IMG/VR virus record: IMGVR_UViG_3300047300_000770
Location: 1 to 38,391 of that record
Direction: 5' to 3' (one strand)
Origin: a virus
DNA length: 38,391 nucleotides
The notes below the pieces were generated by a model. That model was given only the letters and a program-made list of their open reading frames with translations. It was not told the origin of the DNA and searched no databases. Positions 15,990-38,332 of the stretch are shown here, one piece after another. The first letter of the stretch is position 1. The number at the start of each line of letters is the position of its first letter. Position numbers and translations under genes: made by a program.

Positions 15990-18900
15990 ATGCCTTATTT
16001 GGACACTACACGAACTAGCACACTGACGATGGACTATTCGTTCAGCGTCGCAAACCGTATATGGAAGCCCGGATACCCTTTACCGCCTGAAGCCGAAATC
16101 ACCTACAAGAACCATTCACTGACAATGAGTGGGCATCTTGGGTTTTCGGCTACGGTCACGATTCATTCAACAGCAGTGCCAAACTCTACTGACCCTCCAT
16201 ACCTCGGCGGATTCGACTACTCATCCCCGTGGAACTGGAAGATATATGCCACTATCGTCTGTAACAACGGGCACGGAGTCAATACGTCAACAAACGTGGA
16301 CTTGTATACAGGCACGGCTGTCCCAGTAGCCACGAACTTCATTGACTGGGCAAGCACTATTAACGGCAGTCTTAGTTGTAGCGTTGGCACAGATGTATTG
16401 TGGGATGTCACTGTCACTGGACAAAGCGAACCACCCCCAATCACGACTGTAACGTGGCCTCCGAGTACAGCGTATCGATGGTACGAACGCTCTACGGTTG
16501 GAAGCACGGCTACAACAACCCTTACCGTGAACTCGTCATATGGGGGTGGCGGAAGTGGGTCTCACTCAGCAACTGGGACGGTAGCGTCGATACGTCCAAC
16601 GGCGGCATATAACGCTACGATTGGGTCATCGAGTTCAATCAGTTCGCCTACAACAACATCAACTAATCTTTTTGTGTCAAACGTCCTTATCAACGCAAAA
16701 ACACCGAAAACATATACGCATAACCACTCATACCTATCTCAAACAGCAGATATGTTCTCGATGACACTCCAGACGATAGCGGGAAGTGTGTATTCAGCCA
16801 ACGGCACAATTGGGACAACGACTCACCTAACGAGGAATGTAAGCCTTAGAGGTAACTATCGTTCTTGGAAGAATGCTTATACGGATGTCCTTCATCTGAA
16901 TGTATATGGATTTGATTACGAAGTGCCTCCGGGCTATAGGGTATTGACATCGAGTAGTGGTGTAGTAGGCGGAAGTGACACTATTGATAACTACTCTACG
17001 ACTACAACCTTAAATCAGAGTGCAACCGAGTTTCCGGGTACAAACAACACCCTTACAACATCCCTCAACCAAGTGCCGTCATCAATCTACGCCTCGACTA
17101 ATACAACTGACTTGACCAATAACGGTGAATTGGCTACTGAAAACAGATTCTTGTTTAGAGGTTGGCGGTTTAACGGGATGAGTACGACTCATGACGTGAC
17201 CAAGAGCGTCCCTATTACCGGACTCAACACTACATTTGCTGATAACTACAATATGTCGGCATATCGATATTTGGACTACAGCACAACTAGCGGTGGTGCT
17301 TTTACCGGAACATTGACAATCACTAGTCAGCCGGGAGCAAGGACGAAAGTTTGGAATGTCGCATTCGGCGGTGCTGGTACGGTTGTTTCACGACTCGATT
17401 TATGTGCCCCTCCAACAGAAGTGGCAAGTTCTGATTCTCAAGACACTCCTCTACCCAGAGTCAACACTGATATGGCTCATAACTCAGCATATGTGGGGAC
17501 GGCACAGCAAGACGGGCCTTATTGGGGAATTACAAGAGTCAGTAGTATAGTCCTTGCTGTTACTAGTGGAGCAGTACCAACACTGAACTCAATGACACTG
17601 ACTAGGACTGGTGTGACTACAACTCAAAACTTCGTTTATCCATCTCGAGACTACAGTGTTGAGCGAATCACTAAGGCGGTTGTGTCTGAGGCTGATACGA
17701 CCACCACCTTCTATTGCCGTCGCTTCTGGCAACAAGATTCAACGCATCGCACAGAAGAGGAATCTGATGTGCATTGGCAAGTCACTGTCGGAGGAGCGAC
17801 TGGAGTCACTACGACAACTATCCTCGGACGAACGATAAAGAACCTTGTAGATGACATCAATGCAATCGATGCCCTTAGCACCTACGGCGGAAACGTAGTC
17901 CGACATAACGGATGGACAGCAACACGCTCTGTCCCTGAACCGGGAGGCGGTACGTGTGCCGTTAGTCAGCCACCATTACGTGACTGTTACCTCAACGGTG
18001 ATACAGGCTACGCTACTTGGGTGTATGGAGGAGGGATTCTTTGTATACCAACTGTTGCACCCGGAACTGGCACGACGTTTCAATACGGCTTTGACATTGC
18101 CCCCGGAAGCCACACGGCTCAAACCTTATTCGACTCAATCAACGGTGACTTCATCCCAGATATCGATGACCCATTCGATGTCAGCACATCTGCCGTCTTT
18201 GAAGGACTTGTGCTGGTAGGGGGAAACATTTTTAGAGGCCCGGCTCATGGGATTGTCATCAACTCAAACACTCTGGCAACCCCTAACGTCGGAGCGACTG
18301 TTGACTTAATTCGCACTTCATCTGGTGCGAATAGAGGTACGGCTATCACTGGCACATATGGTCAATTTGAGACAAGTACCCCGTTTGCCCAGAACACTGT
18401 AGTCCACTATGCTAGATACGGCACAATCAACATCACTGGAACATACTATTCTGGCAAGAGGAATCGGAATGCTTTTCGGTTTACGATTGCAACTGGCAAT
18501 AGCCTATCCGCACACAATCATGACTACTCTTTGATGCACTTGTATTCAGAAGCATCGTCAGCATTTGGTGGCAGGATTACGTTCTACATATCTCCAGACA
18601 ATGGCTCTACTTGGAATGTCACTGATACTGGCATATCAGCACTCAGCACAGTAAGTGGAGGTGGACACAGCACAAGGTTGCCATTCAATGCTGACAGTCG
18701 GAAAATATGGCTTACTTATATCCCATCAACTCGCCCCCAAGTGCCATCACTTGTGACTCGGTACACAGAAAACGAAGGGAATACGTGGAGTTCAATGGTA
18801 ACACTAGCAAACCCAGCCTATAGACCAACGACGTGTGTCGGAATCAATGGATTCGAATACATCTTCTATTACACGAGCAACAGCACAACGGGTGCTTTGT

Positions 18901-19094
18901 CTGTTGACTCAATTACCCGTGATATGGATGGCAACGTCATCCAATCGGCTCACACCGTCGTCACCACTGATGCCGCATTCGACACATTAGCGGCGTACGT
19001 CCGTGACACCGACATCTTCCTCTTCTATCGCAAGTACACGACAAACGCCGTTGTAGTCGTTAAAAGCACTGACATGGGGAATTCATACACTTGA
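15990..19094 (+). CDS. Large fibre-like virion protein with sialidase-type Asp-boxes
   Basis: 1034 residues, Ser/Thr/Asn-rich and almost wholly beta in character, with no signal peptide and only a few Cys, as in tail fibres or spikes. The last 170 residues carry Asp-box (BNR) motifs of sialidase-type beta-propellers: SPDNGSTW (about 868) and TENEGNTW (about 925), with a degenerate KSTDMGNSY at the very end. A propeller here would bind or cut surface glycans. The protein ends right after that third box, so the propeller may be incomplete or finished by trimer contacts. No catalytic Arg triad can be pointed to. It is plus strand, opposite to all other head genes. Confidence 0.75.
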   Translation: MPYLDTTRTSTLTMDYSFSVANRIWKPGYPLPPEAEITYKNHSLTMSGHLGFSATVTIHSTAVPNSTDPPYLGGFDYSSPWNWKIYATIVCNNGHGVNTSTNVDLYTGTAVPVATNFIDWASTINGSLSCSVGTDVLWDVTVTGQSEPPPITTVTWPPSTAYRWYERSTVGSTATTTLTVNSSYGGGGSGSHSATGTVASIRPTAAYNATIGSSSSISSPTTTSTNLFVSNVLINAKTPKTYTHNHSYLSQTADMFSMTLQTIAGSVYSANGTIGTTTHLTRNVSLRGNYRSWKNAYTDVLHLNVYGFDYEVPPGYRVLTSSSGVVGGSDTIDNYSTTTTLNQSATEFPGTNNTLTTSLNQVPSSIYASTNTTDLTNNGELATENRFLFRGWRFNGMSTTHDVTKSVPITGLNTTFADNYNMSAYRYLDYSTTSGGAFTGTLTITSQPGARTKVWNVAFGGAGTVVSRLDLCAPPTEVASSDSQDTPLPRVNTDMAHNSAYVGTAQQDGPYWGITRVSSIVLAVTSGAVPTLNSMTLTRTGVTTTQNFVYPSRDYSVERITKAVVSEADTTTTFYCRRFWQQDSTHRTEEESDVHWQVTVGGATGVTTTTILGRTIKNLVDDINAIDALSTYGGNVVRHNGWTATRSVPEPGGGTCAVSQPPLRDCYLNGDTGYATWVYGGGILCIPTVAPGTGTTFQYGFDIAPGSHTAQTLFDSINGDFIPDIDDPFDVSTSAVFEGLVLVGGNIFRGPAHGIVINSNTLATPNVGATVDLIRTSSGANRGTAITGTYGQFETSTPFAQNTVVHYARYGTINITGTYYSGKRNRNAFRFTIATGNSLSAHNHDYSLMHLYSEASSAFGGRITFYISPDNGSTWNVTDTGISALSTVSGGGHSTRLPFNADSRKIWLTYIPSTRPQVPSLVTRYTENEGNTWSSMVTLANPAYRPTTCVGINGFEYIFYYTSNSTTGALSVDSITRDMDGNVIQSAHTVVTTDAAFDTLAAYVRDTDIFLFYRKYTTNAVVVVKSTDMGNSYT

Positions 19095-27523: not shown

Positions 27524-27556
27524 CTCTGTACTCCTATCTCCGAACTTGATGTACAG

Positions 27557-27586
27557 AGTATAGGGCACGATTTACATACTTGTCAA
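27557..27586 (-). promoter_or_regulatory. Early-type promoter
   Basis: TTGACA (27586-27581), 18 bp, TATACT (27562-27557), then CATCAAGTTCGG. The quasi-palindrome core TATTTTTGAAAATA (27600-27613) stands upstream. Confidence 0.8.
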
Positions 27587-27617
27587 CAGTGAATTCAAGT
27601 ATTTTTGAAAATAGTTT

Positions 27618-27899
27618 TTAAAACCCTAAATCGTCAACAATGATTGGGTTCTTGGCATTGGACACACGGACGCATTCGATGTTGAACTCGATATACTCGA
27701 CAGCCTCGTCGTAGTCCATACCGTCCTTCATGAAGTGCTTTACCAACTTCATCTTGGAATAGACAACGCAGTCGCTACCGTCCCCGTCGTAAGTTGCGGC
27801 AACTCCGATAATGCAATCATCCAGACCATCGAACATGATGGCGTTATGTCCCATATCAGTCAGGTAGTCACGGATATCCTGACGGTCACGCTTTGTCAT
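27618..27899 (-). CDS. Small acidic protein of a common phage type
   Basis: 93 residues (MTKRDRQDIRDYLTDMGHNA...). It has a strand-loop IIGVAATYDGDGSDCVVYS, then YSKMKLVKHFMKDGMDYDEAVEYIEFN, a pattern ('KM..L...DGM.Y.EA.E.I..N') frequent in small phage proteins without known function. Its ATG overlaps the stop of the DUF3307-like gene. It is followed by the early promoter region at 27557. Confidence 0.72.
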   Translation of the reverse strand: MTKRDRQDIRDYLTDMGHNAIMFDGLDDCIIGVAATYDGDGSDCVVYSKMKLVKHFMKDGMDYDEAVEYIEFNIECVRVSNAKNPIIVDDLGF

Positions 27900-28413: not shown

Positions 28414-28680
28414 TTATGGCTTTGGTCGTACCTCAACCGTACGAGGCTTTGTGTTACGAGCATGGTCACCCATGATTTGATGCACGTCGGCGAACAACGA
28501 CTTCATTGCTGGGTTGCGAACGTATCCGATTACCGTACTAGTGCCGTCGTCATGAGTCACGAACAACTCGACCCCCAGCACATCTGGGTTCTCAGCAAAG
28601 TACCGACTTGCCTTATAGACCATTCGCTCAACGTCATCCGAGCCCGGGTTGTTCAACGGGCGTATATCGACACCATTCAT
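28414..28680 (-). CDS. Small protein closing the Tad2-like array transcript
   Basis: 88 residues (MNGVDIRPLNNPGSDDVERM...). Short alpha/beta protein with VLGVELFVTHDDGTSTVIGYV and a helical FADVHQIMGDHARN; not a Tad2-like member. Its ATG overlaps the stop of array copy E by ATGA, so it is translated with the array. Not recognised. The 86 nt behind it hold no clear terminator. Confidence 0.7.
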   Translation of the reverse strand: MNGVDIRPLNNPGSDDVERMVYKASRYFAENPDVLGVELFVTHDDGTSTVIGYVRNPAMKSLFADVHQIMGDHARNTKPRTVEVRPKP

Positions 28681-28904
28681 TCTTCACCCCACTCACAGAT
28701 TTCCCAGTCGTCAGCACTCATGTCTTCGTGAGTGACACAGATGAACTTGCATTGGGTCTCCCATTTGTCTGCCGTCCTCCTGTCAACGAATGCCTTGATT
28801 TCCGGGTCATAGAAAACAATCCGGTTCTCGTCATCCTCTATCCATTCAGCACGAGTGACAGGGTTGCCACTCATCAGGTCATTAAACACCTCAATGAACG
28901 TCAT
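28677..28904 (-). CDS. Tad2-like (DUF2829-like) protein, array copy E
   Basis: 75 residues from the ATG at 28904. Start MTFIEVFNDLMSGNPVTRAE, then W, matches the DUF2829 opening 'short helix, GxxVxRxxW', and SADDWEIC matches the closing 'AxDWE'. DUF2829-type proteins include the Thoeris anti-defence factor Tad2, which traps cyclic signal nucleotides. Copy E is the most diverged at its C-terminus, with extra EWGEE. ATGA junctions link it on both sides. Confidence 0.75.
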   Translation of the reverse strand: MTFIEVFNDLMSGNPVTRAEWIEDDENRIVFYDPEIKAFVDRRTADKWETQCKFICVTHEDMSADDWEICEWGEE

Positions 28905-29134
28905 TCCACTATCTCCCAATCGTCTTCAAGGAAGTCAGACCCATCAAACGGGTCACCTCCACACCACGCTTGCACCCAGTTTTCATCAGCCTCATGGAAT
29001 GGAATCCACACTATTCTTGTATACGGCGAGCCATCTTTTTCGGGTGTAAGTACGACAGCAAAGAAACTTGGCATAGTTGAGTTGGTGACTTTCTTGCCAT
29101 CACGTAAGGCTTGCAGTGCTTGAAGTCCGGTCAT
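28901..29134 (-). CDS. Tad2-like protein, array copy D
   Basis: 77 residues. MTGLQALQALRDGKKVTNST opens the fold, and FLEDDWEIVE closes it. The Arg-x-x-Trp motif is lost (TNSTMP instead), but the middle carries several aromatic residues (RIVWIPFHEADENWVQAWCG) that could line a ligand pocket. This suggests a changed ligand. It is linked to copies C and E by 4-nt overlaps. Confidence 0.72.
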   Translation of the reverse strand: MTGLQALQALRDGKKVTNSTMPSFFAVVLTPEKDGSPYTRIVWIPFHEADENWVQAWCGGDPFDGSDFLEDDWEIVE

Positions 29135-29364
29135 TCCACTACCTCCCAGTCGTCTTGAAGAAAGTCATTCAAAATATCTTCCACTAACGTGACCGCATCC
29201 TCTGGATAGTAGCAGTCCTCTCCTCGTCTGCGATGATAGTCGAGTGATGGACTTATGGTTTTATTGTCGTCACAACTTCTCAAGTATTCACTTTCTCGCC
29301 ATTCAGCACGTTTGACTTTGGCTGGACTATTTCGTAACAAATTAAGTGCCTTAAGTCCCGTCAT
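29131..29364 (-). CDS. Tad2-like protein, array copy C
   Basis: 77 residues from the ATG at 29364. MTGLKALNLLRNSPAKVKRA is followed by EW, so the VxRxxW motif is kept; the C-terminus is LQDDWEVVE. The variable middle is rich in Asp/Tyr/Arg (DYHRRRGEDCYYPEDAV). First and last parts are nearly identical to copies A and B, whereas the middle is not, a pattern expected if only the ligand pocket diversifies. Confidence 0.78.
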   Translation of the reverse strand: MTGLKALNLLRNSPAKVKRAEWRESEYLRSCDDNKTISPSLDYHRRRGEDCYYPEDAVTLVEDILNDFLQDDWEVVE

Positions 29365-29594
29365 TCCACTACCTCCCAATCATCATGCTCTTCCAGAAAT
29401 CCCTTAACCATTTCGGCAAACAGGTTGGCGTTTCTGTGCATTTTGTCTGTTAAGGAACAGTCTTTCTTGACCATTTCCATTGCCACTTGCTCCTCACTTA
29501 AAATTGTCCATTTAATGAAAGTCCCACTATCCCAGCCCTTACGCCGTATATTCTTCCGGTCTCGCAATGCGAGAAATGCTTCAACACCTGTCAT
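29361..29594 (-). CDS. Tad2-like protein, array copy B
   Basis: 77 residues. MTGVEAFLALRDRKNIRRKG then W, the canonical RxxW, is followed by FIKWTILSEEQ and the ending HDDWEVVE. It is the copy closest to the family pattern. A start GGAATGACAGG with the upstream stop embedded is repeated, nearly unchanged, at each junction of the array. Confidence 0.8.
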   Translation of the reverse strand: MTGVEAFLALRDRKNIRRKGWDSGTFIKWTILSEEQVAMEMVKKDCSLTDKMHRNANLFAEMVKGFLEEHDDWEVVE

Positions 29595-29830
29595 TCCACT
29601 ACCTCCCAGTCGTCTTTAAGTAGGTCATTATAGAAATGTTCGACGATAGCACCCGGTGAACCGAATCGTAAATCGAATGCAAATTCATTTTGTATGTATT
29701 CGTCATAGTTGGTTGATAATGAAAGTTGCCCTTCTTCGTCAATAAGGATGAACATATCGTCATCGCCCTTGCGACGTATACGATGAACTGTTCCTTCTAA
29801 CAATGCTTGCAATGCCTCTATTCCTGTCAT
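29591..29830 (-). CDS. Tad2-like protein, array copy A
   Basis: 79 residues from the ATG at 29830. MTGIEALQALLEGTVHRIRR opens, KDDWEVVE closes. The Trp after the Arg pair is replaced (KGDDDMF). The middle is acidic (YDEYIQNEFAFDLRFGSPGA). It is first in the array and lies 4 nt after the preceding gene. Ligand unknown. Confidence 0.77.
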   Translation of the reverse strand: MTGIEALQALLEGTVHRIRRKGDDDMFILIDEEGQLSLSTNYDEYIQNEFAFDLRFGSPGAIVEHFYNDLLKDDWEVVE

Positions 29831-29834
29831 TCGA

Positions 29835-30068
29835 CTACCTACGCTTTCTACTCTTCGCATCGGTTTCGCTCTGAAGGTTGTTCCGCATGATGTCAAGCAT
29901 CACGAGTGCCTTGTCGATATGTCGCTTCCGAGCCTCAGTGAGGTCATCAGCGTCGTACGCCTTCCTGAGTTCGTCATGAGCGTTACTGAGGAGCAACGCC
30001 GTTCCGGTATAGACACGAGGCTTACCAACCTTGATTTTGATAAGCCCGTCTGGAGTGCGTTCAATCAT
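29835..30068 (-). CDS. Small helical protein
   Basis: 77 residues (MIERTPDGLIKIKVGKPRVY...). After a short beta start it is helical and highly charged (LSNAHDELRKAYDADDLTEARKRHIDKALVMLDI), ending in a basic SRKRR tail. Possibly nucleic-acid-binding. Its ATG overlaps the stop of the 55-residue gene upstream. It precedes the Tad2-like array in the same transcript. Confidence 0.7.
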   Translation of the reverse strand: MIERTPDGLIKIKVGKPRVYTGTALLLSNAHDELRKAYDADDLTEARKRHIDKALVMLDIMRNNLQSETDAKSRKRR

Positions 30069-30232
30069 TTCCGTTTACCTACTTTCTGTTGGTTACGAGT
30101 CTGACCAAAGGTCGCCTTTGCACTGAGTTTATGGGCTTCAGCCCTAGTGGAATCGTTTATCCAAATGATAAACGTAGAGCCCTTGTGAGCCCCCTCCTTC
30201 GCACCCGTCAACCGAACCGCCATCTTTGCCAT
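30065..30232 (-). CDS. Small basic protein opening the array transcript
   Basis: 55 residues (MAKMAVRLTGAKEGAHKGST...), ending in a basic Gln/Lys tail (RNQQKVGKRK). A strand FIIWIND lies in the middle. GGAGGAG precedes the ATG in an early-type leader (ATCAAGTTTTGG), and the stop forms an ATGA overlap with the next gene. It is the first gene of the 30232-28414 operon. Not recognised. Confidence 0.7.
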   Translation of the reverse strand: MAKMAVRLTGAKEGAHKGSTFIIWINDSTRAEAHKLSAKATFGQTRNQQKVGKRK

Positions 30233-30262
30233 TTGTAGGCTCCTCCAAAACTTGATGTCAAT

Positions 30263-30292
30263 AGATTACTACACTACTTATATATTTGTCAA
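30263..30292 (-). promoter_or_regulatory. Early-type promoter of the Tad2-like array operon
   Basis: TTGACA (30292-30287), 18 bp, TAATCT (30268-30263), then CATCAAGTTTTGGAGGAG. The divergent promoter for 30409 lies 56 bp away with two A/T quasi-palindromes (30299-30312 and 30321-30338) between them. Confidence 0.78.
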
Positions 30293-30348
30293 CCGTTCTA
30301 TCAAAAATAGTTAGTGAAAGTATTTTCAAAAATAGTTGCCTAGTTCTA

Positions 30349-30378
30349 TTGACAACACCGTAAAGTATTGCCTATACT
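30349..30378 (+). promoter_or_regulatory. Early-type promoter
   Basis: TTGACA (30349-30354), 18 bp, TATACT (30373-30378), then CATCAAGTTCGGAGG before the ATG at 30409. Confidence 0.82.
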
Positions 30379-30408
30379 GTTTACATCAAGTTCGGAGGAA
30401 ACAAAACA

Positions 30409-30795
30409 ATGTTGACAATCGCTGAAATCGTAGACGCTCTCGAGTCGGGCAAGATGGTAGTCGGAACTGAAGTCGAGACTGGTACTCCTATCAAGGCTGT
30501 ACTCGGAAATACCATCCGAGATTGGGAGTGCGGTGAAGGGGCTCACATTATCATCAACAGCATCGGTGCTGATGGTACTTACGAGTGGGAAGACCTTGCT
30601 GAGGTATACGAAGATGACTTCCAGTCGTCTGGCTGGTTCGATGCACCAGAGTACTACGTTTGGGAATCAGTCGAGAATGCACCAAACCTCGTTTCGCTGG
30701 GGTTTGCACTCCACACAAATCCCGCTTGCGATGAAGTGTGGGACTCAGTCGGTCACTGGGACGCTCAACAGGCAAAGATGGGCTTACCGAGGTAA
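30409..30795 (+). CDS. Acidic protein of unknown function
   Basis: 128 residues (MLTIAEIVDALESGKMVVGT...). The opening 'helix, SGKxV' faintly resembles the Tad2-like start, but no DDWE ending follows, and the rest (GAHIIINSIGADGTYEWEDL..., FDAPEYYVWESVENAPNLVS) is unlike that family. It is acidic and Trp-rich. Driven by one of the best early-type promoters in the window, and upstream of two XRE regulators. Function unknown. Confidence 0.75.
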   Translation: MLTIAEIVDALESGKMVVGTEVETGTPIKAVLGNTIRDWECGEGAHIIINSIGADGTYEWEDLAEVYEDDFQSSGWFDAPEYYVWESVENAPNLVSLGFALHTNPACDEVWDSVGHWDAQQAKMGLPR

Positions 30796-30826
30796 TCGGT
30801 AGGCTCACATCACAACTAACGTGTAT

Positions 30827-30843
30827 GGGGCTCACAGAGCCCC
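30827..30843 (+). promoter_or_regulatory. Intercistronic hairpin
   Basis: GGGGCTC, ACA, GAGCCCC: a perfect 7-bp stem without a T-run, about 22 nt before the ribosome site of the first XRE gene. It may partly terminate or protect the upstream mRNA. Confidence 0.55.
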
Positions 30844-30877
30844 GTACGGACACATAAAACAAACGAGGAGGATAGTA

Positions 30878-31138
30878 ATGACAGAAGTAGCAAGTGAAGT
30901 AAGTGCGAAATTTGGAGCGTGGCTCCGAGGGGTTCGTGAGGACAATGGTTATAGCGTTCGTGGAATGGCAAAGGTGTTAGAGGTAACGCCGAGTTACCTA
31001 TCAAAAGTTGAGCGTGGCGATTTCACGCCCTTGACCCTAGAGAAGTTAGTCATCGTGAGTCACTCATTCAACATACCTATTGCGACACTGTTGGAGAAGG
31101 CTGGACGTTGTGAACATTGTGGAGGGTTTAAGCACTAA
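30878..31138 (+). CDS. XRE-family regulator with a C-terminal CxxC
   Basis: 86 residues from the ATG at 30878 (GAGGAGGATAGTA upstream). A Cro/CI helix-turn-helix covers about 12-65: WLRGVREDNGYSVRGMAKVL, TPSYLSKVERGDFTPLTLEK, LVIVSHSFNIPIATLLEKAG. The tail CEHCGGFKH could bind a metal with a second subunit. It is the kind of regulator that could read the shared palindromic box at the early promoters. It overlaps the next XRE gene by one base (TAATG). Confidence 0.88.
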   Translation: MTEVASEVSAKFGAWLRGVREDNGYSVRGMAKVLEVTPSYLSKVERGDFTPLTLEKLVIVSHSFNIPIATLLEKAGRCEHCGGFKH

Positions 31139-31410
31139 TGCAACGAGATAGGAAGATGGTGGCGGGTGATATTGAACTTGCGTATGGACGGTCTGTATCA
31201 CGCCTGAGACGACGTATAGGGCTAGGTCAAGAAGCATTTGCGTACAAGGCAAATATCAACCGAACGTACATGACAGATATCGAACTCGGACGACGTTCCG
31301 TAGGGATTGGAATCACACAGAAGATTTGCCAAGCACTCAATGTGAGCCTAGTCGAGTTTGCTGTTGAACTCACGAATCAAGTCGAAAACCTAAAACGAGA
31401 ACCCAAGTAA
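31138..31410 (+). CDS. XRE-family regulator
   Basis: 90 residues with an HTH at about 14-70: ELAYGRSVSRLRRRIGLGQE, AFAYKANINRTYMTDIELGR, RSVGIGITQKICQALNVSLV. A short helical tail follows. The pattern is of the restriction-controller or repressor type. Translation is coupled to the first XRE gene. Two HTH proteins made together could form a heteromeric switch, but this is inference. Confidence 0.88.
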   Translation: MQRDRKMVAGDIELAYGRSVSRLRRRIGLGQEAFAYKANINRTYMTDIELGRRSVGIGITQKICQALNVSLVEFAVELTNQVENLKREPK

Positions 31411-34140: not shown

Positions 34141-34502
34141 AGCTGGTCTATATATAAGGTACGCACGGGCACACACACAGGCACACACACGCGGAATTAG
34201 TACTTAACTAATTAAGTAGTTAACGTAGTACTAATTAGGTTGTTAATTAAGTCTTCCCTAATTAGTACCTACTGAACTAATTAAAGGTAGGGGGTATGGG
34301 GGAAGGGTAGAGTAAGACCTATACATGACAGCCCTGAGTTGAGTCCGGGATTACATGAATGAAAGCCCGTGTAAGCCCCTACAACGCCCGTAGAGGCGTT
34401 CTACATATCCATATAGGCTAACTTATCGTCTGGAGTCAAAACGAGGCTGTACGGTCATTCTGGAGGCTTGAATCTTTTTCGAAAAATAGTTAGGTAGGGG
34501 TA
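34141..34502. other. Gene-free, repeat-dense A/T region, origin-like
   Basis: No gene is visible between 34029 and 34564. The part from 34166 to 34190 carries two GCACACACAC-type repeats. 34195-34290 is strongly A/T-rich with three copies of AATTAGTAC (34195, 34260 direct; 34228-34236 inverted), an inner inverted repeat TTAACTA/TAGTTAA (34204-34223), and several TTAATTAA-like words. Then come a G-rich purine strand (34286-34315) and a small hairpin ACGCC/GGCGT near 34394-34409. Repeats plus A/T-rich DNA between divergent early genes are typical of phage origins; no initiator site is proven. Confidence 0.5.
34195..34236. repeat. Nested inverted repeats (10 bp and 7 bp)
   Basis: AATTAGTACT (34195-34204) and AGTACTAATT (34227-34236) are perfect inverted repeats 22 bp apart; TTAACTA (34204-34210) and TAGTTAA (34217-34223) nest inside. 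A third AATTAGTAC lies at 34260-34268. Confidence 0.85.
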
Positions 34503-34531
34503 TTGACATTACGAATATCGTTGCCTATACT
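34503..34531 (+). promoter_or_regulatory. Early-type promoter
   Basis: TTGACA (34503-34508), 17 bp, TATACT (34526-34531), then AATCAAGTTCGAGGAG before the ATG at 34565. An A/T quasi-palindrome lies at about 34474-34492. Confidence 0.82.
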
Positions 34532-34564
34532 CTCTACATTAATCAAGTTCGAGGAGTAAACAAA

Positions 34565-34765
34565 ATGGTCACTACAGTCAAGGTCAGCACAACGACGTTC
34601 GTTCAGTCCGGTATCGAGATGACATCTGTCATCGGAACCTTTGGCAATGGCAAGCGTCCTGTAGGTCGCATCGTGATGGGAACCTACCCTACAGGAACGG
34701 TCGCTTGGTACGCCGTACTTGCGACGTGGATGAAAGCAAACCCTGACATCAAGGTTGCATTCTAA
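34565..34765 (+). CDS. Small protein, paralogue of the 33822 gene
   Basis: 66 residues (MVTTVKVSTTTFVQSGIEMT...). IGTFGNGKRPVGRIVMGTYP matches IGHIGSGKRPIARIVMGTFP of the opposite-strand gene; both end in a helix and a 'NPD...F' strand. Copies face away from each other across the repeat region. GAGGAG lies 9 nt before the ATG. Function unknown. Confidence 0.76.
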   Translation: MVTTVKVSTTTFVQSGIEMTSVIGTFGNGKRPVGRIVMGTYPTGTVAWYAVLATWMKANPDIKVAF

Positions 34766-35476: not shown

Positions 35477-35692
35477 ATGACAATCAGCGACATGATTCCG
35501 CACCTGATATCTGGGGCGACGGTTACCCGCAAGTCAAGTACAGTTGACAGGACAATCCGATACAACCGAACTACAAAGAGTTTTCATGAGGGCATACAAG
35601 GCATTCAGGACATGATTGTCGCCCGTAGAATCGAGTTGACAATCGATGACCTTAAAGCCGAGGATTGGGAATTAGTTAATGACGGGAATTGA
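35477..35692 (+). CDS. Tad2-like (DUF2829-like) protein, plus-strand copy 1
   Basis: 71 residues. MTISDMIPHLISGATVTRKS matches the family opening with VxR but without the Trp, and LKAEDWELVNDG matches the closing 'AxDWE'. The middle is basic (TIRYNRTTKSFHEGIQGIQD). GAGGAGAAAG stands before the ATG. A second family member overlaps its end by 14 nt in the style of the minus-strand array. Confidence 0.7.
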   Translation: MTISDMIPHLISGATVTRKSSTVDRTIRYNRTTKSFHEGIQGIQDMIVARRIELTIDDLKAEDWELVNDGN

Positions 35693-35888
35693 CGCACTGA
35701 TAATGCTTAGGAGCGGCAAGGCGGTTTTGATTACGCTGGTCGATGACTACCGGATTCAAATCGAAGCAACTAACCAGACGCTCGCCAATGGCGAAGTCGA
35801 AACCTCTATCAGGGTGTACGGGACTCCGTTGAATAATGACATTCTCCTGTACAACCTGCTCAATGAACAATGGACTGTACTGAAATGA
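35679..35888 (+). CDS. Probable diverged Tad2-like protein, plus-strand copy 2
   Basis: 69 residues. MTGIDALIMLRSGKAVLITL is close to the array copies' MTGxxALxxLRxGKxV start, even at DNA level (ATGACGGG), and the end reads LLNEQWTVLK where the others have DDWEVVE. The Arg-x-x-Trp motif is missing. I see it as a drifted member; a chance similarity of the first 20 residues is possible but less likely given the neighbouring copy. Confidence 0.62.
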   Translation: MTGIDALIMLRSGKAVLITLVDDYRIQIEATNQTLANGEVETSIRVYGTPLNNDILLYNLLNEQWTVLK

Positions 35889-36845: not shown

Positions 36846-36927
36846 TTGCGAGATATCGGGCTCGTGACTGAGTGTAGGGTAGTCTCCCTCCGGGGTTCGA
36901 CTACCCGCAAAAATATTTTTGAAAAAG
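36846..36927 (+). other. Inverted repeat with a second T-loop-like motif
   Basis: GGGTAGTC (36878-36885) pairs with GACTACCC (36899-36906), enclosing TCCC/GGGG and a GGTTCGA motif. TTGCG (36846-36850) can close it with CGCAA (36906-36910). An A/T box follows (36909-36925). It could be the 3' part of the preceding transcript or a weak terminator; no gene is seen. Confidence 0.45.
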
Positions 36928-36930
36928 TAC

Positions 36931-36960
36931 TTGACAACTAAGTAAAGTGTGAACTATACT
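36931..36960 (+). promoter_or_regulatory. Early-type promoter of the tandem RNA
   Basis: TTGACA (36931-36936), 18 bp, TATACT (36955-36960), then CAATCAAGTTACTTGA. It has the early leader box but no ribosome site or gene behind it. A T/A box stands at 36911-36925. Confidence 0.8.
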
Positions 36961-36966
36961 CTGTTC

Positions 36967-37254
36967 AATCAAGTTACTTGATAGGGTGGGATTCCCAAAC
37001 TGACGGACAAACTAAACTCCTCAGGGGGCTATTCGGGGACATAAAGCAGGAGTCCCTCCAGCATAGTGACAGTGCTGGAAGTTTTCTGACCGCATTGAAA
37101 TAGGCATGGACTTGATGCATCCATGAAGGGGTGGAATTCCCAAATAGCAGGACTTATCAGACTCCTCTACGGGCTATATGGGCTGACGCAAAGCAAGAAG
37201 TCAGCACCGTTCTACGGAACGGTAGGCAATACCAACCTCAGGGTTGGTTTTTTT
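36967..37254 (+). ncRNA. Non-coding RNA made of two diverged copies of one fold
   Basis: No reading frame with a ribosome site is present. Copy 1 (36969-37078) and copy 2 (37105-37222) share, in order: a short hairpin; the box GGGxTGGRATTCCCAAA (36983-36999 and 37128-37144); ACTCCTC (37016-37022 and 37161-37167); GGGCTAT; a hairpin whose loop holds AAAGCARGA; and a last hairpin. The loop-bearing stem is GGGAC/GTCCC in copy 1 and GCTGAC/GTCAGC in copy 2, so pairing is kept while bases change. The RNA has its own promoter and terminator. No known RNA family is recognised. Confidence 0.75.
37231..37254 (+). terminator. Rho-independent terminator of the tandem RNA
   Basis: ACCAACC (37231-37237), TCAG, GGTTGGT (37242-37248), followed by a run of seven Ts. 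Confidence 0.93.
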
Positions 37255-37312: not shown

Positions 37313-37350
37313 GAAGCCTCACGCTAACTCCTCGGCGTGGGGCTTCTTTT
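37313..37350. terminator. Terminator, probably bidirectional
   Basis: GAAGCCTCACGC (37313-37324) and GCGTGGGGCTTC (37335-37346) form a 12-bp stem with one T-G pair and TTTT behind it. It also serves the 3' end of the minus-strand Mom-like gene that stops at 37349. Confidence 0.85.
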
Positions 37351-38332
37351 ATTCGCCCCTGACACTTGGATACGGATAGGTTTTATTCGCCTCCAGAAAC
37401 CTCATCCTGAGGCGTTTTGTCTCAACCTTGGACTTACCTAGCACGTAGGCATATTTATGCTTCTTTGGCGACTGTACTGGGGTAGCAATCGCTTGCTTTG
37501 CTTTGGACATTGCCCTCAACTGAGCCTCAATGGATGACGGCACACGAGACCAGTCGATTGAGTCATTGACCATCCACGAGTCTTGCCATCTGATTCCAAG
37601 TTCACGAGCATAGAGTCGGTACGCTGACTTCTGTCGGAAGAATCTATCGGACACAATCTTCCCGTTGTAGGGATTGATGTACTTACTCGTCGCTCCGAAC
37701 CGATTACCGAGGTAGTAGAAGTTACAGGCTTGGTAAATCGTGCCTAGTTCTTTGGCGGCAGGGTCGGAATAGGCGGTAAACAGCCTGAACTCGGTGTTCC
37801 TAACCATGTCTCGGATGCACCACATCATCATTCGGCTGGCTAGACACTTCGGTGACCAAGACACACACGCTCCTCGACTGATTAGGCGTTCGATACGGGT
37901 GTCCTCACCGAGCATCTTGGACATTCCGTTCGGGATGTTCATCAGAATAACCCCAGCAAGAACGTGCCGTCCAAAGAGACCCTGATTCTTATCGAAATAG
38001 TACGACCCGTACCAATGCGTCGTGTACTGAGAGATTGTTCCGAGCCACTCATGCCTCTGAATGAAGAGAATTGCTTGCTCCTTCTCCTCATCTGTCCTCA
38101 TCAACCGGAATTCAAAGTCGTCCGGTGTCATTGCCGCTATCAAATCAACCGGAATCCCCGACTCACGGATGTCTTCAGTGAGATTGTTGCTCCGAATGTC
38201 GTATTGCCAACAATGAGACTTGTCATACAGACGCAAAGACACGTCATCTGAGTCAGCACTGACGGTCAGGATTGGGTCAGTCTCGACGGCACATGGCTCG
38301 ATATCGAAAAGCGGAAGTTGGATGTCACTCAT
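37349..38332 (-). CDS. Mom-like DNA modification protein (GNAT-type fold)
   Basis: 327 residues. The centre fits the phage Mom group: HVLAGVILMNIP (123-134), IERLISRGACVS (147-158), a helix SPKCLASRMMMWCIRDM, and AYSDPAAKELGTIYQACNFY then YLG (187-209), the 'A.D....G.IYQA.N..Y.G' signature. Mu Mom converts adenine to N6-carbamoylmethyladenine and protects phage DNA from restriction. The N-terminal 80 and C-terminal 100 residues (basic, Lys-rich) are extra, possibly for DNA binding. The ATG has no Shine-Dalgarno and follows a terminator-type hairpin by a few nucleotides. Confidence 0.75.
   Translation of the reverse strand: MSDIQLPLFDIEPCAVETDPILTVSADSDDVSLRLYDKSHCWQYDIRSNNLTEDIRESGIPVDLIAAMTPDDFEFRLMRTDEEKEQAILFIQRHEWLGTISQYTTHWYGSYYFDKNQGLFGRHVLAGVILMNIPNGMSKMLGEDTRIERLISRGACVSWSPKCLASRMMMWCIRDMVRNTEFRLFTAYSDPAAKELGTIYQACNFYYLGNRFGATSKYINPYNGKIVSDRFFRQKSAYRLYARELGIRWQDSWMVNDSIDWSRVPSSIEAQLRAMSKAKQAIATPVQSPKKHKYAYVLGKSKVETKRLRMRFLEANKTYPYPSVRGE

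Follow-up and report, generated by a model that had tools for sequence, protein, structure and literature searches.

Most characterised members of the Tad2 family are nucleotide binders; their ligands are gcADPR in the case of phage SPO1, His-ADPR in Myroides odoratus, or cyclic dinucleotides (PMC12043709, PMC13299392). Tad2 is a homotetramer, and a long insertion between β2 and β5 serves the binding of cyclic dinucleotides (PMC12043709). The characterised family members in the PDB are anti-defence proteins; one of them is deposited as AcrIIA7, i.e., an inhibitor of type II CRISPR-Cas. So far, Tad2 sponges have been studied singly. No description of multi-copy Tad2 arrays was found in the titles, abstracts and passages of the mainly open-access literature searched.

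Here we report on a virus record of 38,391 bases (IMGVR_UViG_3300047300_000770, positions 1 to 38,391), which is referred to as the window. It also encodes an HK97-type capsid (PF05065), a portal and a terminase. On the minus strand, from 28677 to 29830, five open reading frames of 75-79 aa follow each other head to tail. These are p1, the first cassette (29591..29830, 79 aa), p2 (29361..29594, 77 aa), p3 (29131..29364, 77 aa), p4 (28901..29134, 77 aa), and p5, the last cassette (28677..28904, 75 aa). All five frames are open. At each junction the TGA stop shares four nucleotides with the next start codon (ATGA), and p5 overlaps in the same manner with the next, unrelated ORF (28414..28680, (-), 88 aa, no family). 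The gene immediately upstream of the array (29835..30068, (-), 77 aa) also belongs to no family; in a sister phage, G001, it is joined directly to p5. The five genes, their positions and their 4-nt overlaps are as given in the preliminary description of this DNA. Its count of five is correct for the array, yet two further genes on the plus strand were missed. p6 (35477..35692, 71 aa) matches PF11195 with an E value of 0.0004 and has an orthologue in G001. p7 (35679..35888, 69 aa), which shares 14 nt with p6, is a probable seventh member; it has no Pfam match, and our own family HMM detects it with E 0.009 (≤ 1e-3 after iteration).

Every array copy starts with MTG or MTF and carries DDWE near its C-terminus. 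Four copies end in DDWE(V/I)VE, p5 in DDWEICEWGEE. The common ends which had been described are thus real. The motif GxxVxR, said to be present in all copies, fits strictly only in p5 (GNPVTR); the correspondence is loose in p4 (GKKVTN), p2 (RKNIRR), p3 (AKVKR), and p1 (VHRIRR). Near the array operon, on the opposite strand, two overlapping genes of the Cro/CI-type HTH class are located (30821-31138 and 31138-31410, both (+)). Elsewhere in the window an ORF of 1034 aa (15990-19094, (+)) has no Pfam or PHROG match.

The assignment of the array proteins to the Tad2-like superfamily is well supported. Each of the five proteins has PF11195 (Tad2-like, formerly DUF2829) as its best Pfam family, with E values of 0.0026, 0.0015, 0.0072, and 0.00066 for p1 through p4. 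Only p5 (26.9 bits) passes the curated cut-off of 25 bits; p1 to p4 score 17.3-20.6 bits and remain below. A single-sequence phmmer search of the PDB with p5 gave no relevant match. A profile built solely from array proteins (93 sequences, taken from the window and from related contigs) matches every solved Tad2 among the PDB sequences with E ≤ 6e-6, i.e., AcrIIA7/HgmTad2 (7e-10), M. odoratus Tad2 (2e-9), SPO1 Tad2 (5e-8), and SptTad2 (6e-6); no non-Tad2 protein in the PDB matches below E 0.3. p1, p2, and p4 are tied to the p5 group by profile comparison with E values of 6e-6 to 2e-5, in the case of p2 over residues 1-27 only.

The fold comparison covers single-chain models of p5 and p3. The AlphaFold (AF2) model of p5 (pLDDT 85.3) is assigned by Foldseek to 12 Tad2/AcrIIA7 chains with a probability of 1.00. 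VIA yields Z scores of 9.6-10.5 against Tad2 entries with 64-67 residues aligned; the next unrelated chain has 4.6. For the p3 model (pLDDT 90.7) Foldseek gave no significant match. In VIA all top-ranking matches are Tad2 entries (Z 6.3-6.9; the next chain has 3.1), and the Tad2 relation of p3 is accordingly based on VIA-align and the profiles. Within residues 41-67 of p3 two helices are predicted (41-48 and 54-67) where p5 has strands. Pfam, the family profile searched against the PDB, and the predicted folds of p5 and p3, for both of which only Tad2s rank on top, together bear out the relation to Tad2/DUF2829 that had been proposed at the outset.

How do the array copies compare with the Tad2 proteins of known structure? 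SPO1 Tad2 (Thoeris anti-defence 2) is from a Bacillus phage (PDB 8SME/8SMF/8SMG) and has a fold like that of p5 (VIA Z 9.6-10.2, 64-65 residues, rmsd 1.7-1.9). Common to it and the array copies are an N-terminal helix, RxxW, a C-terminal DW motif, and the format of a small phage-encoded protein. In contrast, SPO1 Tad2 has 89-90 aa and a WNGK loop and is known to bind gcADPR, whereas the array copies have 75-79 aa, no WNGK, and are organised in a tandem series. MoTad2/ModTad2 from a Myroides odoratus prophage (PDB 8V3E, 9EIB), the His-ADPR binder, demonstrates that different signals are bound within one family. Its fold, too, is like that of p5 (Z about 10), yet it is a single protein with a longer middle than the array copies. 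The best profile match and the best fold matches (Z 10.5) are those to HgmTad2/AcrIIA7 (PDB 8KBI, 8KBJ, 8KBK, 9KZR) and SptTad2 (8WJD). These proteins have 101-104 aa (158 in 9KZR) and possess the long insertion linked to cyclic dinucleotides, which the array copies do not have.

Pocket residues were judged from the solved Tad2 sequences and a review. Marks of a characterised Tad2 signal sponge include pockets between the protomers and the relief of Thoeris or CBASS. WNGK is part of the β1-β2 loop in the gcADPR pocket region of solved Tad2s. It is absent from p1-p5; of the 178 distinct array copies, 2 have it. As all five lack this loop, gcADPR as such is unsupported as a ligand. At the position of the cyclic-dinucleotide insertion the solved Tad2s have extra residues compared to the family profile, and the p5 model shows short turns between strands. 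With neither of these two sequence features present, the array copies are at best putative nucleotide-binding Tad2 sponges. The helices of p3, which replace part of the pocket region, also count against the explanation favoured below.

A central claim of the preliminary description was that the ends are constant while the middle varies freely. Among the five paralogues the contrast does exist: mean identity is 42% for residues 1-22, 19% for the middle, and 63% for the last 14 residues. Between orthologues it vanishes. Each copy has counterparts in other phages, orthologous or closely related, with middles that are 30-86% identical. Free variation of the middle is contradicted by this comparison and by purifying selection: the median dN/dS is 0.16, and in none of 205 orthologue pairs, considering those with moderate dS, does it exceed 1. 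Further, each subfamily has near-invariant polar residues in its middle, e.g., R28, R42, Q51, and K53 in p5 or R47-G48-E49 in p3. Orthologues of p1 are present in the contigs L114 (78% identity), L031, and L115, and one of p2 in L029/L073 (61%). For p3 they are found in about ten contigs (49-73% identity), p4 has relatives in L032 and L039, and p5 has more than 25 orthologues. As judged by these alignments, the copies are distinct, constrained subfamilies, from which we infer distinct targets.

This leads to the explanation we favour, to which we would give slightly better than even chances, i.e., that the locus is a combinatorial counter-defence cassette array built on the Tad2 fold, with middles specialised for different host immune signals or defence components. 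The product of each cassette gene would be a small protein of Tad2 fold whose middle has been remodelled. This middle would most probably face the ligand and be specialised for a different signal or component in each case. A panel for different targets had been suggested before. Indirectly, it is favoured by the fixed middles, by purifying selection, by the rarity of neighbours from the same subfamily (see below), and by the different signals bound by known Tad2s. It is unlikely, though worth keeping in mind, that the copies are instead direct binders or inhibitors of host defence proteins which use Tad2 as a scaffold and do not sequester small molecules. The deposition of a solved family member as AcrIIA7, the missing features of the characterised nucleotide pockets, and the invariant polar middle residues peculiar to every subfamily would all fit such inhibitors. 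Against them stand the nucleotide ligands of most characterised members (PMC12043709, PMC13299392) and the lack of a known partner for any copy. Should every conserved subfamily indeed have a target of its own, the arrays would constitute a sequence-readable catalogue of the immune signals natural phages must defeat.

The conserved C-terminus deserves a separate consideration. The codons TGG GAG GTA GTG GAA TGA specify W-E-V-V-E-stop and at the same time include GGAGGT, spaced from the overlapping ATG as expected of a Shine-Dalgarno sequence. Of 54 copies which have W at position -5 and overlap the next gene by ATGA, 43 use GAG for the glutamate; where the overlap is lacking or W is at -8 or further, 24 of 55 do so (p 1.6e-4). 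Because related sequences are not independent, the count by subfamily is the safer figure (17/22 vs 9/26, p 0.004). A first count had given 36/42 vs 15/50, the GAG share in the remainder of these genes being 26%; among non-overlapping copies with the same end motif, 6 of 9 have GAG. In view of this codon bias at the Shine-Dalgarno position the constancy of the C-terminus likely has two causes, a feature of the Tad2 family and a service to the next gene. As the WEVVE codons double as the Shine-Dalgarno sequence of the following gene, the cassette genes would be translated serially in a coupled fashion.

The boundaries between the genes are marked by a 17-base repeat on the minus strand. GGAGGTAGTGGAATGAC is found at p1/p2 (29590..29606), p2/p3 (29360..29376), and p3/p4 (29130..29146); GGAGATAGTGGAATGAC with one mismatch is located at p4/p5 (28900..28916), and an entrance copy with two mismatches, GTAGGTAGTCGAATGAC, at 29826..29842. 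These are five occurrences in the array region at ≤ 2 mismatches, compared to 0.04 expected from shuffles at ≤ 3 mismatches. Hence, the pattern is not due to chance.

What happens at these boundaries is evident from pairs of related loci. In the upstream flank of the array (6.6 kb) G001 and the window share about 87% DNA identity, in the downstream flank (4.6 kb) 86%. G001 lacks exactly p1 through p4, and the upstream gene joins p5 via GGAGGTAGTGGAATGAC. In addition, p5 of G001 is truncated by a deletion of about 140 bases (window 28768 to 28628 vs G001 50322-50321), by which p5 loses its end and the next gene its start. When the contigs L069 and L039 are compared, L069 has one extra cassette, positioned exactly between RBS and start of the gene which comes next in L039. 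In another slot the two contigs carry different cassettes and the matching sequence resumes at ATGA. In the pairs L086/L101 and L105/L097 the last cassette differs from its start onwards. Going by these breakpoints, recombination probably acts at the boundary repeat. A short repeat which carries RBS and start codon would provide every cassette with interchangeable ends, and phages could thus acquire, drop or exchange cassettes one at a time and assemble differing repertoires out of a common pool. The arrays suggest that a counter-defence repertoire may be changed stepwise without breaking gene expression because the conserved C-terminus also supplies the RBS of the next gene.

Integron gene cassettes are one-gene units with common ends, which are combined into varying arrays from a shared pool. 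By analogy, the Tad2-like arrays appear to have all of these properties. They differ in that the ends consist of a coding and RBS repeat; no integrase or attC is implied, and recombination of the homologous or illegitimate kind would be enough.

The state of G001, with p1-p4 absent and p5 truncated, indicates that the set is dispensable in this phage. One might be inclined to regard the whole array as selfish or decaying DNA that has no function at present and persists through repeat-mediated duplication. Considering the median dN/dS of 0.16, the five open frames, and the fact that the array copies are not recent duplicates of each other, we rate this as extremely improbable.

The arrays are not confined to the window. 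A scan for the junction pattern combined with protein searches retrieved 64 loci from viral contigs, most of them with several copies; the PF11195 matches number 10 in one contig and 11 in another. Clustering by average linkage, used here since single linkage had merged distinct subfamilies, resolved 193 copies into 59 subfamilies. Among 88 tight junctions 61 are 4-nt overlaps; these overlap counts, like those of orthologues, are biased upward, as many loci were found via the junction pattern or with p1, p3 or p5 as seeds. The same subfamily is present on both sides in 2 of the 88 junctions, and 51 different ordered neighbour pairs occur. The median best identity of a copy is 0.78 between contigs and 0.31 within its own contig. 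As the best match usually resides in another contig, the arrays have been assembled from a pool and not by fresh local duplications; recent tandem duplication as their origin is ruled out by the same figures.

These data bear on the question of whether p1-p5 form fixed mixed multimers with a stoichiometry set by co-translation. Tad2 is a homotetramer (PMC12043709), translation coupled by 4-nt overlaps favours assembly of neighbours, and the paralogues have an N-terminal helix in common. A fixed partnership, however, would preserve pairs, while we observe 51 ordered pairs in 88 junctions and single cassettes swapped in otherwise matching loci. Such free reassortment disfavours mixed multimers, which had been offered as a second possibility, at least in their obligate form, and we consider them very unlikely.

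Several array-bearing contigs of 53-166 kb have no relatives of the terminase and capsid of the window, with the reservation that these contigs may be incomplete. This suggests that the arrays are shared between phage lineages. We tentatively propose, with less confidence than we attach to the counter-defence array as such, that several phage lineages share a pool of one-gene Tad2-fold cassettes, recombined cassette-exactly against many immune signals, some of them not yet known. In that case every subfamily would point to a host defence messenger of its own. Among cellular genomes, 5 of 299 from Bacillota have PF11195 at E ≤ 1e-4, with one copy each, and a junction scan of GTDB genomes resulted in two loci only, each with a single Tad2-like gene. 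In 50,697 phage records tblastn found no convincing match for p3, p4, p5, one copy each from L029 and L027, or an HTH fusion; there was one weak DUF2829 match in a Lactobacillus phage (E 0.5). Likewise, megablast against these records gave no match for the second half of the window. The matches of its terminase are below 60% identity and are scattered over many hosts.

Some array copies are not small. N-terminal extensions of more than 45 aa are present in 32 of 205 copies, in 29 of the 64 loci, and several contain HTH domains. HTH matches above the Pfam cut-offs precede the Tad2-like domain in L032 (8097-8657), L040 (10100-10492), L049 (12886-13284), L058 (4441-4839), and L088 (1656-2060); weaker HTH matches are found in L027 (11207-11602), L039 (4042-4449), and L069 (4282-4689). 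All these fusions are located within or beside arrays. The long extensions, some of them with HTH, suggest regulation and weigh against the counter-defence reading. Conceivably, Tad2-like domains are ligand-sensing or oligomerisation parts of a phage regulatory network in which the HTH-fused forms are regulators and the short ones modulate; the weak matches of p1, p2, and p3 to PHROG 643 ('transcriptional regulator') point in the same direction. The five copies of the window, however, have no HTH, and free gain, loss and swapping fit accessory functions better than a fixed circuit. A regulatory network is thus quite unlikely in our opinion.

A few minor observations are added. A single 172-aa ORF with two consecutive Tad2-like domains, of which the latter retains a WNGK loop, is present at L025:2650-3168, L033:1213-1731, and L035:3823-4341. 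The window further encodes a Mom-like DNA modification protein (37349-38332, (-); PF25680, E 6e-10; PHROG 1384), possibly a further counter-defence gene. Short stretches which resemble dispersed repeats, at about 27540-27620, 30230-30420, 34480-34690, and 36910-36976 of the window, match many other places in G001 at 70-100%. In G001 (C1:24100-25349) the orthologue of the major capsid protein is read as two overlapping ORFs; in the numbering of the protein from the window they correspond to residues 1-195 and 236-458.
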